From an uncultured Chloroflexus sp. (GTDB lineage Bacteria > Chloroflexota > Chloroflexia > Chloroflexales > Chloroflexaceae), in NCBI RefSeq assembly GCF_937951745.1, contig NZ_CALFBQ010000030.1:1-64000 (forward strand): 64,000 bases of DNA, written 5' to 3'. The notes under the pieces were generated by a model. It did not search any database. It saw only the letters and a list, made by a program, of their open reading frames with translations, and was not told where the DNA came from. The translations under genes and the position numbers were made by a program. Shown one piece after another: positions 36,155-42,698 of this stretch. The first letter of the stretch is position 1; each line of letters begins with the position of its first letter.

Positions 36155-36183
36155 TTGACACCACACCCGACTTCTGATATATT
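36155..36183 (+). promoter_or_regulatory. Consensus promoter of the lysine operon
   Basis: TTGACA (36155-36160), exactly 17 bp, then TATATT (36178-36183). This is the best promoter match in the window. The start of transcription is expected at 36188-36193, at or just before the leader ATG. Confidence 0.75.
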
Positions 36184-36192
36184 CTCTACGCT

Positions 36193-36261
36193 ATGAGAAA
36201 CATACACGCATCTACCAAGCAGAGCAAGCGCGCGAAGAAGCCGGCCGCAAGGTCTGGTTAG
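36193..36261 (+). CDS. Lysine-rich leader peptide of the lysine operon (candidate)
   Basis: A 22-codon frame: MRNIHASTKQSKRAKK then PAARSG and TAG. Four Lys codons (36217, 36226, 36235, 36238), two of them adjacent, plus three Arg codons stand in a 22-residue peptide ahead of lysine-synthesis genes. There is no Shine-Dalgarno site; the promoter places the 5' end 0-5 nt from the ATG, so translation would be leaderless or nearly so. The last codons contain GGTCTGG (36251-36257), which can pair with CCAGACC (36303-36309) in the following terminator. Existence as a translated peptide is inferred. Confidence 0.5.
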   Translation: MRNIHASTKQSKRAKKPAARSG

Positions 36262-36338
36262 CTACGCTTGTCTGCTGTGCGTAAGAGACAAGACCCGGCT
36301 CGCCAGACCGAATGGTGGGCCGGGTTAATTGTTTGTGT
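36251..36338 (+). terminator. Candidate attenuator: terminator with competing antiterminator
   Basis: Terminator: ACCCGGCTCGCCA (36293-36305) pairs with TGGTGGGCCGGGT (36313-36325), 13 bp with two G-U pairs and a 7-nt loop, then the T-rich TAATTGTTTGTGT. Antiterminator: GGTCTGG (36251-36257) pairs with CCAGACC (36303-36309), using bases of the terminator arm, so the two exclude each other. A spacer hairpin CTTGTCT/AGACAAG (36267-36292) lies between. A second option pairs CCGGCC (36241) with GGCCGG (36318). Confidence 0.6.
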
Positions 36339-36350
36339 CTGGAGGGACGT

Positions 36351-36461
36351 ATGAAACAGATTCGCACGACTAGCCCAATCGCGTACACGCCACGTTACTG
36401 CCGGCCCGAACTCTTCGGCTCCTGTCAAGTAAGAGAGGTGCTACCGTATGTCGCTGCCTGA
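36351..36461 (+). CDS. Small ORF overlapping the homocitrate synthase start
   Basis: A 36-codon frame (MKQIRTTSPIAYTPRYCRPE then LFGSCQVREVLPYVAA) with a strong ribosome site, GGAGGG at 36341-36346. Its TGA at 36459-36461 lies 14 bp inside the homocitrate synthase gene in another frame, an arrangement often used for translational coupling. No family is recognised. It could be a real small protein or a device that sets initiation at the next gene. Confidence 0.45.
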   Translation: MKQIRTTSPIAYTPRYCRPELFGSCQVREVLPYVAA

Positions 36462-37575
36462 GCGCCTGTTTTTTGTCGATACGACCCTGCGCGAAGGCGA
36501 ACAGTTCGCCAGCGCCCGCTTTACCACCGCGCAACGGATCGCTATCGCCGAGATGCTCGACGCTTTTGGCGTTGAGTACATCGAAATGACCTCGCCCGCC
36601 GCCTCGCCGCAAAGCGCGCGCGATCTCGCCACCATCGCTCGCCGCGGCTTGCGCGCTCGTATCCTCACCCATATCCGCTGCCACATGGCCGATGCCCGCC
36701 TCGCCGTCGAACACGGCGCGCAAGGCGCTAACCTGCTTTTTGCCACCTCTGAACCACTGCGCGCGGTCAGCCATGGCCGGAGTTTGAGCGAGATTCTGGA
36801 AGAAGCGCAACAGGTGATCAGCTTCTTGCGTGACCACGACCTCGAAGTGCGCTTTTCAAGCGAAGATAGCTTCCGCACCGATCTCGCCGACCTGATCCGC
36901 ATCTACCGCGCTGTTGAGGCAATGGGAGTGCAACGGATCGGCCTCGCCGATACGGTTGGCATCGCCACGCCACGGCAAGTCTACGAGGTGGTCAGCGCAG
37001 TGCGCGCCGAAGTCAATTGCGACATCGAATTTCACGGCCATAATGACAGCGGCTGCGCCATTGCCAATACCTTCTGCGCTGCTGAAGCCGGCGCGACCCA
37101 TCTTGATGTGACGGTGCTCGGCATTGGCGAGCGCAACGGCATTGCTAGTCTGAGCGGGATGATCGCCCGGCTGGCTAGTGTAGACCCGGCCCGCGTGCAG
37201 CGGTACCGGCTCGATCTGCTGCCCAAGATTGATGAGACGGTCGCCACCATGCTCGGGATCGAGATTCCGTTCAATCAGTGCATCACTAGCCCTACCGCCT
37301 TCCATCACAAAGCCGGGATGCACACCAAGGCGGTGCTGGCCGATCCGCGCAGTTACGAAGTGCTCGATCCGAATTGGTTTGGCCGCCAACGCACAATCGC
37401 GATTGCCCATCGCCTAGTGGGATGGCACGCCGTCGCCGAACGAGCCCGCGAGCTGGGTATTACCCTCAGCGAAGCGCAAGCCCGCGCCGCCGCCGCCCGT
37501 ATTAAGGCCCTTGGCGATGAACACGATCTTGATGGCGCGATGATCGACGAAATTTTGTATAGCTACGCCGAATAA
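36448..37575 (+). CDS. Homocitrate synthase
   Basis: Condenses acetyl-CoA and 2-oxoglutarate to homocitrate, the committed step of the aminoadipate (AAA) lysine route. The 375-residue TIM-barrel enzyme shows the HMGL-family motifs FVDTTLREGEQFASARF, EFHGHNDSGCAIAN (metal-binding His residues) and GIGERNGIASL, and the C-terminal FHHKAGMHTKAV, whose His is specific to the homocitrate/isopropylmalate synthase group. AGAGAGGTG precedes the ATG. The setting beside homoaconitase and LysW fixes the substrate as 2-oxoglutarate rather than 2-ketoisovalerate. Lysine feedback on this enzyme is common. Confidence 0.93.
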   Translation: MSLPERLFFVDTTLREGEQFASARFTTAQRIAIAEMLDAFGVEYIEMTSPAASPQSARDLATIARRGLRARILTHIRCHMADARLAVEHGAQGANLLFATSEPLRAVSHGRSLSEILEEAQQVISFLRDHDLEVRFSSEDSFRTDLADLIRIYRAVEAMGVQRIGLADTVGIATPRQVYEVVSAVRAEVNCDIEFHGHNDSGCAIANTFCAAEAGATHLDVTVLGIGERNGIASLSGMIARLASVDPARVQRYRLDLLPKIDETVATMLGIEIPFNQCITSPTAFHHKAGMHTKAVLADPRSYEVLDPNWFGRQRTIAIAHRLVGWHAVAERARELGITLSEAQARAAAARIKALGDEHDLDGAMIDEILYSYAE

Positions 37576-37624: not shown

Positions 37625-38875
37625 ATGCCAACGATGAGCGAACAGATTTTGAGCCGCGTCGCCGGTCGTCCGGTGCGCGCTGGCGATGTCGTGACGGCGA
37701 ACGTTGATCTGGTGATGGTGCATGATAGCTTGGCCCCCGGCATCATTCGCATTCTGCACCAAGAGTTGGGCGCCGAGCGGGTGTGGGATCCGCAGCGGGT
37801 GGCAGTGGTGATCGACCACGTGGCTCCCGCTGCCAGCGTGCAGACCGCCGAAAAGCAGCAAGAGGTGCGGCGCTGGGTGCGCACGCAAGGCATCCCCAAC
37901 CTGTTTGATGTCGGGCGCGGCATTTCGCACCCGGTGTTGGTTGAAGAGGGGTTGGCCCAGCCGGGGATGTTGATTTTGGGCAGTGATAGCCATAGCACGG
38001 CGTATGGCTGCGTGGGAGCGTTTGGCAGCGGCATGGGCAGCACCGACATTGCGCTGGCGCTGGCGACCGGCAAGACATGGCTGCGCGTGCCGGAGACGAT
38101 TGTGGTACGCGCGCGCGGCACGTTTGGCTTCGGCGTCGGCCCGAAGGATTTGGCCCTCCGCGCCGCCCGCTTGCTCCGCGCCGATGGCGCCACCTACGCC
38201 GCGATCGAGTGGCACGGCGTCGAGCAGCTCAGCGTGATGGAGCGGATGACGCTGGCGACCCTCTCGATTGAAATGGGGGCCAAAGCTGGTATTATCTCGC
38301 CTGCTGGTCTCGACCTCACCGGCCCGCTGGTGCCTACCGTCGATGCCGATGCGCAGTATCAAACGGTGGTTGAGATCGATCTCGGTCAACTTGAGCCACA
38401 AGTCTCCGCCCCACATTATGTCGATAACGTCGCCGATCTGAGCGATCTGGGCCGGGTGGCGGTTGATGTGGTCTACCTCGGCACATGCACTAACGGCCAC
38501 TACGAAGACATGGCGGTCGCGGCCCAGATCTTGGCCGGACGCCGCCTCGCGCCGGGAGTGCGTATGATCGTCGTGCCGGCCAGTGCGCAAGCCTTGCAAC
38601 GCGCTGCTAGCGATGGCACCCTCGCTACGTTGCTCGCTGCCGGGGCCACGATTGGTACACCGGGTTGCGGTGCATGCATTGGCCGTCACATGGGAGTGCT
38701 TGCCCCCGGCGAGGTTTGCCTCTTCACCGGCAACCGCAACTTCCGTGGCCGCATGGGCAGTCCCGAAGCGCAGATCTACCTCGCCTCGCCGGCAGTCGCC
38801 GCCGCAACGGCACTTACTGGCTATCTAACCGATCCGCGTACAGTGATGGATGGCCAGCCGGTCGTATCGCAATAA
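37625..38875 (+). CDS. lysT: Homoaconitase large subunit
   Basis: With the small subunit it converts homocitrate to homoisocitrate via cis-homoaconitate. The 416-residue chain has the aconitase 4Fe-4S cysteines in VYLGTCTNGHYEDM and TPGCGACIGRHMG, substrate motifs ILGSDSHSTAYGCVGAFGSG, and VVIDHVAP. Length and two-subunit layout match LysT of Thermus and the LeuC-like homoaconitases. It lies 49 bp after homocitrate synthase and 28 bp before the small subunit. Confidence 0.92.
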   Translation: MPTMSEQILSRVAGRPVRAGDVVTANVDLVMVHDSLAPGIIRILHQELGAERVWDPQRVAVVIDHVAPAASVQTAEKQQEVRRWVRTQGIPNLFDVGRGISHPVLVEEGLAQPGMLILGSDSHSTAYGCVGAFGSGMGSTDIALALATGKTWLRVPETIVVRARGTFGFGVGPKDLALRAARLLRADGATYAAIEWHGVEQLSVMERMTLATLSIEMGAKAGIISPAGLDLTGPLVPTVDADAQYQTVVEIDLGQLEPQVSAPHYVDNVADLSDLGRVAVDVVYLGTCTNGHYEDMAVAAQILAGRRLAPGVRMIVVPASAQALQRAASDGTLATLLAAGATIGTPGCGACIGRHMGVLAPGEVCLFTGNRNFRGRMGSPEAQIYLASPAVAAATALTGYLTDPRTVMDGQPVVSQ

Positions 38876-38903
38876 CGCTCAGTGCAGAAAGAGAGGCTTT
38901 GCT

Positions 38904-39404
38904 ATGGCTCGTGTGTGGCTCTTTGGCCCCGATATCAATACCGATCAGATCGTTCCCGGTCGCTATGCGCCGTATATGTTGAAGGATGAGAGTGAACTGC
39001 GTCGCTACCCGTTCATCGAACACCGGCCCGATTTCGCGCCCAACGTGCGCCCCGGCGACATCATCGTCGCTGGCAAGAACTTTGGCTGCGGTAGCTCGCG
39101 CGAATACGCTCCGTTAGCTTTGCGCATGGTCGGCGTTGGCGCAATTATCGCCCCGCTCTTTGCCCGCATCTTCTTCCGCAACGCGCTCAACCTCGGCATT
39201 CCCTGCTTTACCGCCGATCTGACCAGCGAGCTGGCCGATGGCGATGAGGTTGAACTTGATCTGGAACAGGGACGGATTACAACCAGTGATGGGCGCGTGA
39301 TCCACTTGCCACCGCCACCGCTCTTCCTGCGCGAGGTGTGGGCCGCAGGTGGCATTGTGCCGTTCTACCGCCAGTATGGTCGTTTCCCCGGTGAGGTGGC
39401 GTGA
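38904..39404 (+). CDS. lysU: Homoaconitase small subunit
   Basis: A 166-residue swivelling domain that completes the active site. VWLFGPDINTDQIVPGRYAP and AGKNFGCGSSREYAPLALR are the standard LeuD/LysU motifs, the latter with the substrate-binding Ser-Arg. Start at ATG 38904 behind AGAGAGGC. Its TGA stop overlaps the ATG of the next gene, so translation is coupled. Confidence 0.92.
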   Translation: MARVWLFGPDINTDQIVPGRYAPYMLKDESELRRYPFIEHRPDFAPNVRPGDIIVAGKNFGCGSSREYAPLALRMVGVGAIIAPLFARIFFRNALNLGIPCFTADLTSELADGDEVELDLEQGRITTSDGRVIHLPPPPLFLREVWAAGGIVPFYRQYGRFPGEVA

Positions 39405-40402
39405 TGCAGATTTGTGTCATTCCCGGCGACGGAATCGGCCCGGAGGTGATGGCTGTAGCGACGGCGGCGCTGCGTGCGCTGGCGCCTGACCTCACGCTGA
39501 CCGAAGCTGAAGCGGGGTGGGGCGTCTTCCAGCGCACAGGCGTCGCTTTACCCGCCGAGACACTGGCGGCAGCCCGTGAAGCGACCGCGATTCTCTTTGG
39601 CGCAGTCGCCTCGCCAAGTCACCCGGTGCCCGGTTACCGCAGCCCAATTGTCGAACTGCGCCGCACCCTCGACCTCTACGCCAACATCCGGCCCACAGTC
39701 GGCCCCGGCGTTGATCTGGTAGTCGTGCGCGAGAACACCGAAGACCTGTATAGCGGGCGCGAGCGGCTCGAAGACGATGGAAACACCGCCATCGCCGAGC
39801 GGGTCATCACCCGCGCCGCCTCGGCCCGTATCGCCCGCACCGCTTGCGAAATAGCGCACGCACGCCAAGCAGCCGGTCATCCCGGTAAAGTCACAATCGT
39901 TCACAAAGCCAATGTGCTGCGTGTCACCGACGGCCTGTTCCGCACCGTGGCGCTGGAAGTCGCCGCCGATTTCCCCGAATTGACTTTTGAGGAGCGGTTG
40001 GTTGATGTGGCCGCAATGCAACTAGCTGCCCAACCGCAGCGGTTTGATGTGATCGTCACTACCAACCTGTTCGGCGATATTCTCTCGGACATTGCCTGCA
40101 TTCACGGCGGTGGCTTGGGTGTCGCCGCCAGCAGCAATCTCGGCCACGGTCGGGCGTTGTTCGAGCCGGTGCATGGCGCGGCGCCCGACATCGCCGGACG
40201 CGGCATTGCCAATCCAACCGCAGCCCTCAACTGCGTGGTGATGCTGCTTGAGTGGATCGACCGGCCCCACGTGGCCGAACGGCTGCGCCGGGCCATGGAT
40301 GCCGTCGCCGCTGCTGACATTCGCACCCCCGACGCTGGCGGTGACGCAACAACTCGTGAAGTAGCCGATGCTATTCTGGAACAGATCGCAACCCTAGCTT
40401 GA
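39404..40402 (+). CDS. Homoisocitrate dehydrogenase
   Basis: NAD-dependent beta-decarboxylating dehydrogenase giving 2-oxoadipate from homoisocitrate. The 332-residue enzyme shows CVIPGDGIGPEV, the substrate loop ELRRTLDLYANIRP, catalytic Tyr in VVVRENTEDLYSGRE, VHKANVLRVTDGLF and metal-binding Asp residues in TTNLFGDILSDIACI, then EPVHGAAPDIAG. The context assigns homoisocitrate rather than isopropylmalate or isocitrate, although relaxed specificity (as in Thermus) is possible. Starts within the stop of lysU. Confidence 0.92.
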   Translation: MQICVIPGDGIGPEVMAVATAALRALAPDLTLTEAEAGWGVFQRTGVALPAETLAAAREATAILFGAVASPSHPVPGYRSPIVELRRTLDLYANIRPTVGPGVDLVVVRENTEDLYSGRERLEDDGNTAIAERVITRAASARIARTACEIAHARQAAGHPGKVTIVHKANVLRVTDGLFRTVALEVAADFPELTFEERLVDVAAMQLAAQPQRFDVIVTTNLFGDILSDIACIHGGGLGVAASSNLGHGRALFEPVHGAAPDIAGRGIANPTAALNCVVMLLEWIDRPHVAERLRRAMDAVAAADIRTPDAGGDATTREVADAILEQIATLA

Positions 40403-40417
40403 AAGGAGCACCTAACT

Positions 40418-40585
40418 ATGCACGCTGAATGCCCCGAATGTGTTGCCTTGATCACGCTGCCGGCCAACACGCTAGAGAGTGAGATTATCGCTTGCCCCGA
40501 TTGCGGCGCTGAATTGGAAGTTGTTAGCTTGAACCCGCCTACCCTCGCCCTCGCCCCTGAGGTCGAAGAGGATTGGGGCGAATAA
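40418..40585 (+). CDS. lysW: Amino-group carrier protein LysW, copy 1
   Basis: A 55-residue zinc-ribbon carrier to which alpha-aminoadipate (or glutamate) is attached through the C-terminal Glu while it is reduced and aminated. The zinc cysteines are C5, C8, C26, C29 (CPEC, CPDC) and the chain ends EEDWGE as required. AAAGGAG precedes the ATG. It is 50/55 identical to the next gene; it differs by His2, Val9, Leu11, Asn17 and Ser21, which include loss of an otherwise typical Glu at position 11. Confidence 0.92.
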
Positions 40586-40619
40586 CGACCTTATGTCTAC
40601 CCAACAAAGGAGTTCATCG

Positions 40620-40787
40620 ATGCGCGCCGAATGCCCCGAATGCGCCGCCGAGATCACGCTGCCGGCAGGCACGCTTGAAAACGAAATCATCGCCTGCCCT
40701 GATTGCGGCGCTGAATTGGAAGTTGTCAGCCTCAACCCGCCCACTCTCGCCCTCGCCCCTGAGGTGGAAGAGGATTGGGGAGAATAG
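40620..40787 (+). CDS. lysW: Amino-group carrier protein LysW, copy 2
   Basis: Second 55-residue LysW paralogue, 202 bp downstream of the first in direct repeat. It has the same four zinc cysteines and EEDWGE tail, with Arg2, Ala9, Glu11, Gly17 and Asn21, closer to typical LysW sequences ([15 protein letters not shown]). AAAGGAG again precedes the ATG. The high identity, including long identical 3' halves, indicates recent tandem duplication or ongoing gene conversion. Confidence 0.92.
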
Positions 40788-40798
40788 GAGAACCGATT

Positions 40799-41653
40799 AT
40801 GCGCATTGCCGTCCTCTGCTCGCGCATCCGCGCCGAAGAGAAGCTGCTCTTTCAAGAGCTAGAACGCCGCGGTCTCGATTATGTCAAAATTGATGACCGC
40901 GAGCACATCTTTGACCTCCACCAGACCAGCTACCCGTTTGATGTCGTGCTCGAGCGCGCCATTCAGCATAGCCGCGCACTGTACATGCTCAAAATCCTTA
41001 ACGACGCCGGCGTACCAACGGTCAACACCTACCACGTCGCCCTCACCTGCGGTGACAAGTTTCTCACTACGCAGGCGCTCATCCATGCCGGGGTGCCGAC
41101 GCCACGCTGTTTGCTCGCCTTCACGCCGGAAAGCGCGCTTGAAGCGATCGAGCAGCTCGGCTATCCGGTGGTGCTCAAGCCGGTAATCGGTTCATGGGGG
41201 CGGATGGTGAGCAAGATCAATGACCGCGACGCCGCCGAGGCCATTCTCGAACACCGTGATGTGTTGGGTAATTACCAACACTCAATCTTCTACATCCAGC
41301 AGTACATCAATAAGCCGGGCCGCGACATCCGCAGCTTCGTGATCGGTGACGAGTGCATTGCGGCGATCTATCGCACCAGCCCGCACTGGATCACCAACAC
41401 TGCCCGCGGCGGCGTCGCCACGAACTGCCCGGTCACGCCAGAGCTGGCCGATCTGAGCGTGCGCGCCGCCCACGCGGTCGGCGGCGGCGTGGTCGCGATC
41501 GATATTCTTGAGACACCAGATGGCGAGTTGTTGGTCAACGAAGTGAATTACACGATGGAGTTCCGCAATAGCATCGACACCACTGGGGTTGACATCCCGG
41601 CCCGGATTATCGATTACGTGGTAGAGGTGGGCAGCGGGCGTCGTAGTGTTTAA
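40799..41653 (+). CDS. lysX: LysW-alpha-aminoadipate ligase LysX
   Basis: ATP-grasp ligase that joins the amino group of alpha-aminoadipate to the C-terminal Glu of LysW. The 284-residue protein has the ATP-grasp pattern: [46 protein letters not shown] and the metal-binding [13 protein letters not shown]. Start at ATG 40799 behind TAGGAG, 11 bp after the second lysW. A dual role with glutamate (ArgX-like, as in some archaea) cannot be excluded from sequence alone. Confidence 0.93.
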
Positions 41654-41663
41654 TGAGGCGTGT

Positions 41664-42698
41664 ATGACTTTGCGCGTTAGCATTGTGGGAGCGAGCGGCT
41701 ATGTCGGCGGCGAACTGTTGCGCCTCTTGCTCGACCACCCGCACGTGACAATTGTGCAGGCGACCAGTGCCCGCAACGCCGGGAGATACCTCTATCAGGT
41801 GCATCCCAACTTGCGTGGCCGCACCAATCTGCAATTCGTCCACCCCGACACCTTACAGCCGTGCGATCTGCTCTTTCTAGCCCTACCTCATGGCGAAGCG
41901 GCGCAGGCCATCGAGCGCTACGCCGCCCTCGCCGAGCGGATCATCGACTGTTCGGCTGACTTTCGCCTGCGCGATCCGGCGGTTTACCAGCAGTGGTACG
42001 GCAATCCGCACCCGGCCCCGGCGTGGCTGGAGCGGTTTGTGTATGGGTTGCCCGAAGTGAACCGGGCCGCCCTGATCGGCGCGCGCTATGCCAGCGGCGT
42101 CGGTTGTAACGCCACTGCCACCAACCTTGCCCTGTTGCCGCTGGTGCAAGCCGATCTGATCGACCACACCCGACCGATTATTGCCGACGTGAAGGTGGGA
42201 TCATCGGAAGGCGGCGCGACGGCCAGCGACGCCAGCCACCACCCCGAACGATCCGGCGCGGTGCGCTCGTTTGCGCCGGTTGGTCACCGCCACCTTGCCG
42301 AAGTCGAACAAGTGACCGGCTTGCGCAACGTTCATATGTCGATCACCGCGATCGAGCTCGTGCGCGGTGCGTTAGCGACAGTGCATGCCTTCGCGGCGCG
42401 TGACTTGACCGAAAAGGATTTGTGGCAGGCGTACCGTGGCTTTGCCCGTGAGCAGCCGTTTATCCGTATCGTGAAGGAACGGCAGGGGATCTATCGCTAT
42501 CCAGAACCGAAGATACTGGCAGGGGCCAATTACGCCGACATTGGCTTCGCCTACGAGCCAACGACCGGGCGGATTGTCAGTATCTGCGCGATCGACAATT
42601 TGATGAAGGGGGCTGCCGGCAGCGCTGTGCAGTGCATGAACCTGATGTGTGGTTTTGCCGAGACGACGGCGTTGACGTTTATGGGGTTGCACCCGTAG
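41664..42698 (+). CDS. lysY: LysW-aminoadipyl-phosphate reductase LysY (ArgC-like)
   Basis: NADPH-dependent reductase that turns LysW-bound aminoadipyl phosphate into the semialdehyde. The 344-residue ArgC-fold enzyme has the nucleotide motif SIVGASGYVGGELLRLL, the catalytic Cys in ASGVGCNATATNLAL, VGSSEGGATASDASHH and the C-terminal DNLMKGAAGSAVQ. Start at ATG 41664 with GAGG upstream, 10 bp after lysX. The kinase LysZ, aminotransferase LysJ and hydrolase LysK are not in the window. Confidence 0.92.
   Translation: MTLRVSIVGASGYVGGELLRLLLDHPHVTIVQATSARNAGRYLYQVHPNLRGRTNLQFVHPDTLQPCDLLFLALPHGEAAQAIERYAALAERIIDCSADFRLRDPAVYQQWYGNPHPAPAWLERFVYGLPEVNRAALIGARYASGVGCNATATNLALLPLVQADLIDHTRPIIADVKVGSSEGGATASDASHHPERSGAVRSFAPVGHRHLAEVEQVTGLRNVHMSITAIELVRGALATVHAFAARDLTEKDLWQAYRGFAREQPFIRIVKERQGIYRYPEPKILAGANYADIGFAYEPTTGRIVSICAIDNLMKGAAGSAVQCMNLMCGFAETTALTFMGLHP

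Follow-up and report, generated by a model that had tools for sequence, protein, structure and literature searches.

The stretch of DNA analyzed here (the window) is 64,000 nucleotides from an uncultured Chloroflexus sp., and it carries an operon for lysine synthesis by the LysW-type alpha-aminoadipate pathway (Table 1). The genes run from homocitrate synthase to a lysY/argC-type reductase and are preceded by a promoter, a short leader open reading frame (ORF) and an intrinsic terminator. The real start of lysX is probably at 40796 or later. We note that a conserved small ORF, which overlaps the start of homocitrate synthase by 14 nt, lies beyond the terminator. In 28 loci its motif T-P-R-x-C-R-P-E-L-F-G-[SA]-C-Q-V-R is kept with synonymous changes at most codons, and it is therefore probably a real conserved peptide, the role of which is unknown.

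Table 1. Features of the leader and of the lysine operon (positions in the window)
Feature	Positions	Strand	Details	Support
Sigma-70-type promoter	36155..36183	+	TTGACA (36155-36160), 17-bp spacer, TATATT (36178-36183)	
Leader peptide ORF	36193..36261	+	22 codons, MRNIHASTKQSKRAKKPAARSG-stop; ATG 36193, stop TAG 36259-36261	
Control codons Lys15-Lys16	36235..36240	+	AAG AAG	Conserved in relatives; Lys15 is AAG or AAA
Region 1, 5' arm of 1:2 hairpin	36240..36246	+	GCCGGCC, pairs with 36251-36258	Fold
Region 2, antiterminator 5' arm	36251..36262	+	GGTCTGGTTAGC, contains stop codon	
Post-stop hairpin	36267..36292	+	CTTGTCT/AGACAAG, enclosed by antiterminator	
Region 3, antiterminator 3' arm	36298..36309	+	GCTCGCCAGACC, overlaps terminator 5' arm	
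Intrinsic terminator	36292..36326	+	14-bp stem (36292-36305 with 36313-36326), 7-nt loop, then AATTGTTTGTG	
Conserved small ORF	36351..36461	+	MKQIRTTSPIAYTPRYCRPELFGSCQVREVLPYVAA, between terminator and homocitrate synthase	
Homocitrate synthase (LysS/HCS)	36448..37575	+		TIGR02146 over cut-off
Homoaconitase subunits	37625..39404	+	Large (37625-38875) and small (38850-39404)	
Homoisocitrate dehydrogenase	39401..40402	+		
Two tandem lysW	40418..40787	+	40418-40585 (55 aa) and 40593-40787 (64 aa), both ending EDWGE	
lysX	40775..41653	+		TIGR02144 over cut-off
lysY/argC-type reductase	41646..42698	+		TIGR01850 over cut-off

The promoter matches the consensus at 11 of 12 positions, and an extended TG precedes the -10 element. 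In 8 of 8 Chloroflexus species, 9 nt separate the end of the -10 element from the leader ATG, a spacing that predicts a 5' untranslated region of a few nucleotides, the 5' end itself being unmapped. Because the spacing is common to all eight, a transcript start downstream of 36261 is unlikely. In Chloroflexus the transcript from which the leader is translated, the start of which is inferred, is probably leaderless or nearly so. The corresponding gap is roughly 30 nt in other genera of the family. Thus, the element does not depend on leaderless translation. The four Lys codons of the leader ORF start at 36217, 36226, 36235 and 36238.

The leader RNA has four helices: a 1:2 hairpin within the last codons, a second hairpin that follows the stop codon, an antiterminator formed by regions 2 and 3, and the terminator, which sits between the leader ORF and the first structural gene. 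A preliminary description of the locus had correctly placed the promoter, an ORF of 22 codons (four of them Lys) and the complementary stretches GGTCTGG (36251-36257) and CCAGACC (36303-36309). It had also proposed a 13-bp terminator with a T-rich tail; the terminator is present, but its stem is 14 bp and its tail is only moderately T-rich in Chloroflexus, whereas many relatives have an uninterrupted run of T there. The proposed complementarity likewise exists but extends further (GGTCTGGT.AGC with GCT.GCCAGACC), which places the TAG stop codon within the antiterminator helix. Absent from that reading were the 1:2 hairpin, the post-stop hairpin and the phylum-wide family of copies with swapped codons. 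The 1:2 hairpin, which a ribosome at the control codons could block, is present in the fold (36240-36246 with 36251-36258); its closing CC-GG is nearly invariant, and its pairing register differs by eye among relatives. In other genera the post-stop hairpin reads CTTGCAC/GTGTAGG and is thus altered on both sides. MAFFT shifted the register here by one position between Chloroflexus and other genera, and structural alignments were used instead. The minimum-energy fold also contains an outer pairing between the KQ/KR codons and the stretch after the stop codon, which we do not take as evidence, as the codons constrain the pairing.

The leader is conserved both as a peptide and as an RNA. Its folding energy is below that of shuffled sequences (z = -4.5). 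A DNA search gave matches to the leader in 29 of the 61 relatives, every one with a leader ORF (L001-L029), and with few exceptions the ORFs read K-Q-x-K-[RQ]-x-K-K-P-x-x-x-[SP]-G-stop and end on the same RNA chassis. Genera differ in using AAG or AAA for Lys15; it is the amino acid, not the base, that is kept. A covariance model built from non-Chloroflexus rows only (R1) recovered the element of the window in its own genome at E = 8e-23 and matched 38 of 400 genomes across the phylum. The weaker R1 matches proved to be the same chassis carrying other codons, and a model made from Lys leaders alone recovered Arg and Gln leaders.

How far the chassis extends was assessed with a second, chassis-only model (R2), from which antisense matches were excluded before counting. 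Within the order, R2 found the chassis in 70 of 82 genomes; across the phylum, other classes included, it did so in 64 of 400, and two copies per genome were common. The weakest matches counted include chance matches. Weak matches above an E of about 0.003 were read individually; L275, L278-L281, L283 and L285-L287 look like chance, and a proline group from Anaerolineae is consistent. The codon block follows the downstream gene: Lys before lysine genes (homocitrate synthase, homoaconitase and lysX), Arg before arginine genes (argG, the argJ operon and argC), Gln before a LysE-like exporter and Pro before prolyl-tRNA synthetase operons. At least three Lys are present in 48 of the 51 leaders before lysine genes and in 0 of the 30 before arginine genes (Fisher 4e-19, a test that counts copies, not switches). 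Conversely, leaders with at least four Arg account for 27 of the 30 before arginine genes and 2 of the 51 before lysine genes. Three lysine-gene leaders fall below three Lys, and one of these, the first copy at L162, is Lys-rich in its own frame.

Single genomes can hold several kinds. Three kinds occur together in each of two genomes, G049 (Lys at L227, Arg at L228 and Gln at L229) and G015 (L024, L259 and L260). The genome of the window itself has an Arg copy, with a leader ending RRRRRCRRQLIARTG, before a phosphatase gene (G000 contig 26) that precedes argJ in sister species. This match is weak alone (E = 0.23) and rests on conservation in the sister species. In Anaerolineae, Pro-coded and nearly leaderless copies (MNPNPSPRMCNSSRSG) precede operons, several of which contain prolyl-tRNA synthetase, and several such copies have TATAAT 6 to 9 nt before the ATG and thus a very short predicted 5' untranslated region. 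We consider it likely that one homologous Chloroflexota chassis has been repeatedly retargeted by swapping its codon block (Lys, Arg, Gln, Pro) while the RNA switch was kept, giving a phylum-wide starvation regulon that includes attenuation of argG, argJ and argC.

Several other arrangements of the chassis were observed. The Pro-coded leaders (NPNPSPR..SG-stop) belong to one Anaerolineae family (L249, L253 and L268-L274). At L162, in Caldilineae, two lysine-coded copies stand in tandem (1093-1222 and 1265-1392) upstream of one homocitrate synthase. A Gln- or Lys-coded chassis lies directly upstream of a LysE/RhtB-like exporter at L060, L061, L066, L075, L229, L255 and L260 and at L079, L241 and L242; the leader is Gln-coded in some and Lys-coded in another lineage, and why a starvation-type switch should sit on a putative exporter is unexplained. 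At L224 the chassis is upstream of glutamyl-tRNA synthetase with the leader MNLIEQCVYLQGPDPRSD, and the amino acid sensed is unclear.

The copies also bear on whether the two alternative helices are real. RNAduplex paired region 2 with downstream sequence at -13 to -28 kcal/mol in all 49 copies first examined, with the caveat that the best partner lay outside region 3 in some. Covariation was counted in an alignment of 101 copies made with a model that contained the terminator but not the antiterminator. At seven core pairs of the antiterminator, 91% of cells were paired and 43 changes affected both sides; 500 shuffles averaged 14.8 such changes and never exceeded 25, and slid pairings had no more than 11. 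The terminator stem had 199 both-side changes. Copies of the lysine group hardly vary in regions 2 and 3, and most of the compensatory changes therefore come from Arg, Gln and distant copies. Moreover, the base in column 61 has two partners, column 17 when the antiterminator forms and column 74 when the terminator does, and the triple of column 61 and both partners is T-A-T in 41 copies and C-G-C in 21. As judged from the alignment, this double covariation is the signature of one strand with two alternative predicted pairings. The rows are phylogenetically related and not independent events, and model E-values are rough. The preliminary description had stated that it would be refuted if relatives failed to conserve the Lys codons or the 36251/36303 pairing, or by a transcript start mapped downstream of 36261; the codons are conserved in the proportions given above, the pairing is conserved with compensatory changes, and a start so far downstream is unlikely from the promoter spacing.

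How the element would switch is inferred from folding. With enough lysine, a ribosome at the stop codon (36259) would cover region 2, leaving region 3 free and allowing the terminator to form, and with a ribosome so placed the terminator was the sole possible structure. When Lys-tRNA is short, the ribosome would stall at Lys15-Lys16, hide region 1 and expose region 2, as its 3' edge should lie near 36251 with Lys16 in the A site (inferred from a standard footprint). Region 3, on emerging, could then pair with region 2, enclosing the post-stop hairpin, and RNA polymerase would read through into the lysine operon. Folding of the stalled state (36252 onwards) gave the 2:3 helix once region 3 had been made (-26.5 kcal/mol), and it stayed the best fold until the 3' arm of the terminator was complete. 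By the same simple footprint argument, Lys9 and Lys12 are too far upstream to favor the antiterminator. In the absence of translation, the 1:2 hairpin would form and the terminator would prevail. The full transcript folded without a ribosome has the 1:2 hairpin plus the terminator, and minimum-energy folds without a ribosome have a transient 2:3 pairing for transcripts ending at 36310-36318. The terminator is the more stable at equilibrium (-37.6 versus -29.8 kcal/mol for the antiterminator), and switching must therefore be kinetic, as in known attenuators. The anatomy, conservation and covariation of the element and its match between codons and genes are established here, and we conclude with confidence that it is a trp/his-type ribosome-mediated transcription attenuator sensing charged tRNA-Lys. 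The trp/his logic put forward in the preliminary description is thus supported by the conserved codons, the pairing, the codon-gene match and the folding; stalling, termination and readthrough themselves are inferred.

Conservation of the peptide beyond its Lys codons (K-Q-x-K-R-x-K-K-P-x-x-x-S-G) might instead indicate TnaC-like arrest, in which the basic K-K-P peptide would arrest in the exit tunnel and act as a direct sensor of free lysine. Homologous copies, however, have Arg, Gln or Pro at the Lys positions, tracking the downstream gene, and the RNA pairing accounts for the x-S-G end. Moreover, the leaders at L148, L159 and L164 stop four codons earlier (..KKQSKKQTPD-stop) and have lost S-G, but the RNA keeps GTCTGG and its partner. 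Thus, it is for RNA reasons that the end of the peptide is conserved, and we regard nascent-peptide arrest as improbable. Less probable still is a constitutive terminator with a translated small peptide and a merely insulated promoter. The terminator is indeed the more stable fold and there are no switching data, but the antiterminator covaries, and a plain terminator has no need of a single base that covaries with both partners. A lysine riboswitch or other ligand-binding RNA with an incidental ORF can be dismissed almost entirely, as it would suit a compact conserved structure before lysine genes but not a conserved ORF, a stop codon fixed in region 2, synonymous AAA/AAG changes or the codon-gene match, and Rfam found no family, lysine riboswitch included, in the whole window at gathering score and no leader or riboswitch match in representative loci on permissive search (E up to 0.5).

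The family is of wider interest. Classical attenuators are usually viewed as separate inventions, one per operon. In this family a single RNA switch has apparently multiplied within genomes, its amino acid changed by codon replacement, which makes the family a natural record of switch rewiring and a possible chassis for codon-programmable sensors. Little is known of lysine or arginine synthesis in this phylum, and the family supplies a logic for the regulation of both. It also makes it possible to test attenuation where the mRNA is nearly leaderless.

A lysine attenuator as such is not new. The preliminary description had considered the combination of a leaderless peptide with the LysW pathway undescribed, but Thermus has the same layout before the same gene. 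A leader-peptide attenuator of the Thermus thermophilus lysine (LysW/alpha-aminoadipate) gene cluster was reportedly described by Tsubouchi et al. in 2005 in J Biol Chem. The sequences agree with this: all Thermus homocitrate synthase loci examined have a near-leaderless KK leader such as MLARAKKLGRRGVG and a terminator. A scan found a KK leader with a terminator in 22 of 78 homocitrate synthase loci and 0 of 234 shuffled controls. As in Chloroflexus, homocitrate synthase is the first gene, the leader peptide has Lys-Lys, the -10 element lies close to the ATG (about 12 nt before it), and by eye the last codons are complementary to a stretch overlapping the 5' arm of the terminator (L087-L094, L113, L126). 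Unlike in Chloroflexus, the Thermus leader is 14 aa long, and its RNA is unrelated to the Chloroflexota chassis. An R1 search of the Thermus loci gave no significant match, only the layout being common to both, and common descent therefore remains open.

The trp, his, leu, thr, ilv and phe attenuators of Proteobacteria likewise have a leader ORF rich in the regulated amino acid, regions 1 to 4 with 1:2 and 3:4 pairing alternative to 2:3, and a ribosome at the stop codon that covers region 2, but they belong to another phylum and differ in sequence. To our knowledge, none of them serves lysine or arginine biosynthesis, nor are they one homologous RNA retargeted by codon swaps. The lysine riboswitch (L-box) also controls lysine genes but binds its ligand without a leader peptide, and it has no match in the window. 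We know of no description of the codon-swapped family or of arginine (argG, argJ, argC) attenuation in Chloroflexota, and a search limited to open-access literature found nothing relevant on Chloroflexota or arginine attenuators. Attenuation of aminoacyl-tRNA synthetases of the pheST type resembles the Pro-coded copies that precede prolyl-tRNA synthetase operons, but those copies use the chassis common to the Chloroflexota Lys and Arg elements. Ultimately, the Chloroflexota lysine attenuator is a known kind in a new phylum, and the part that looks new is the homologous family with swapped codons.
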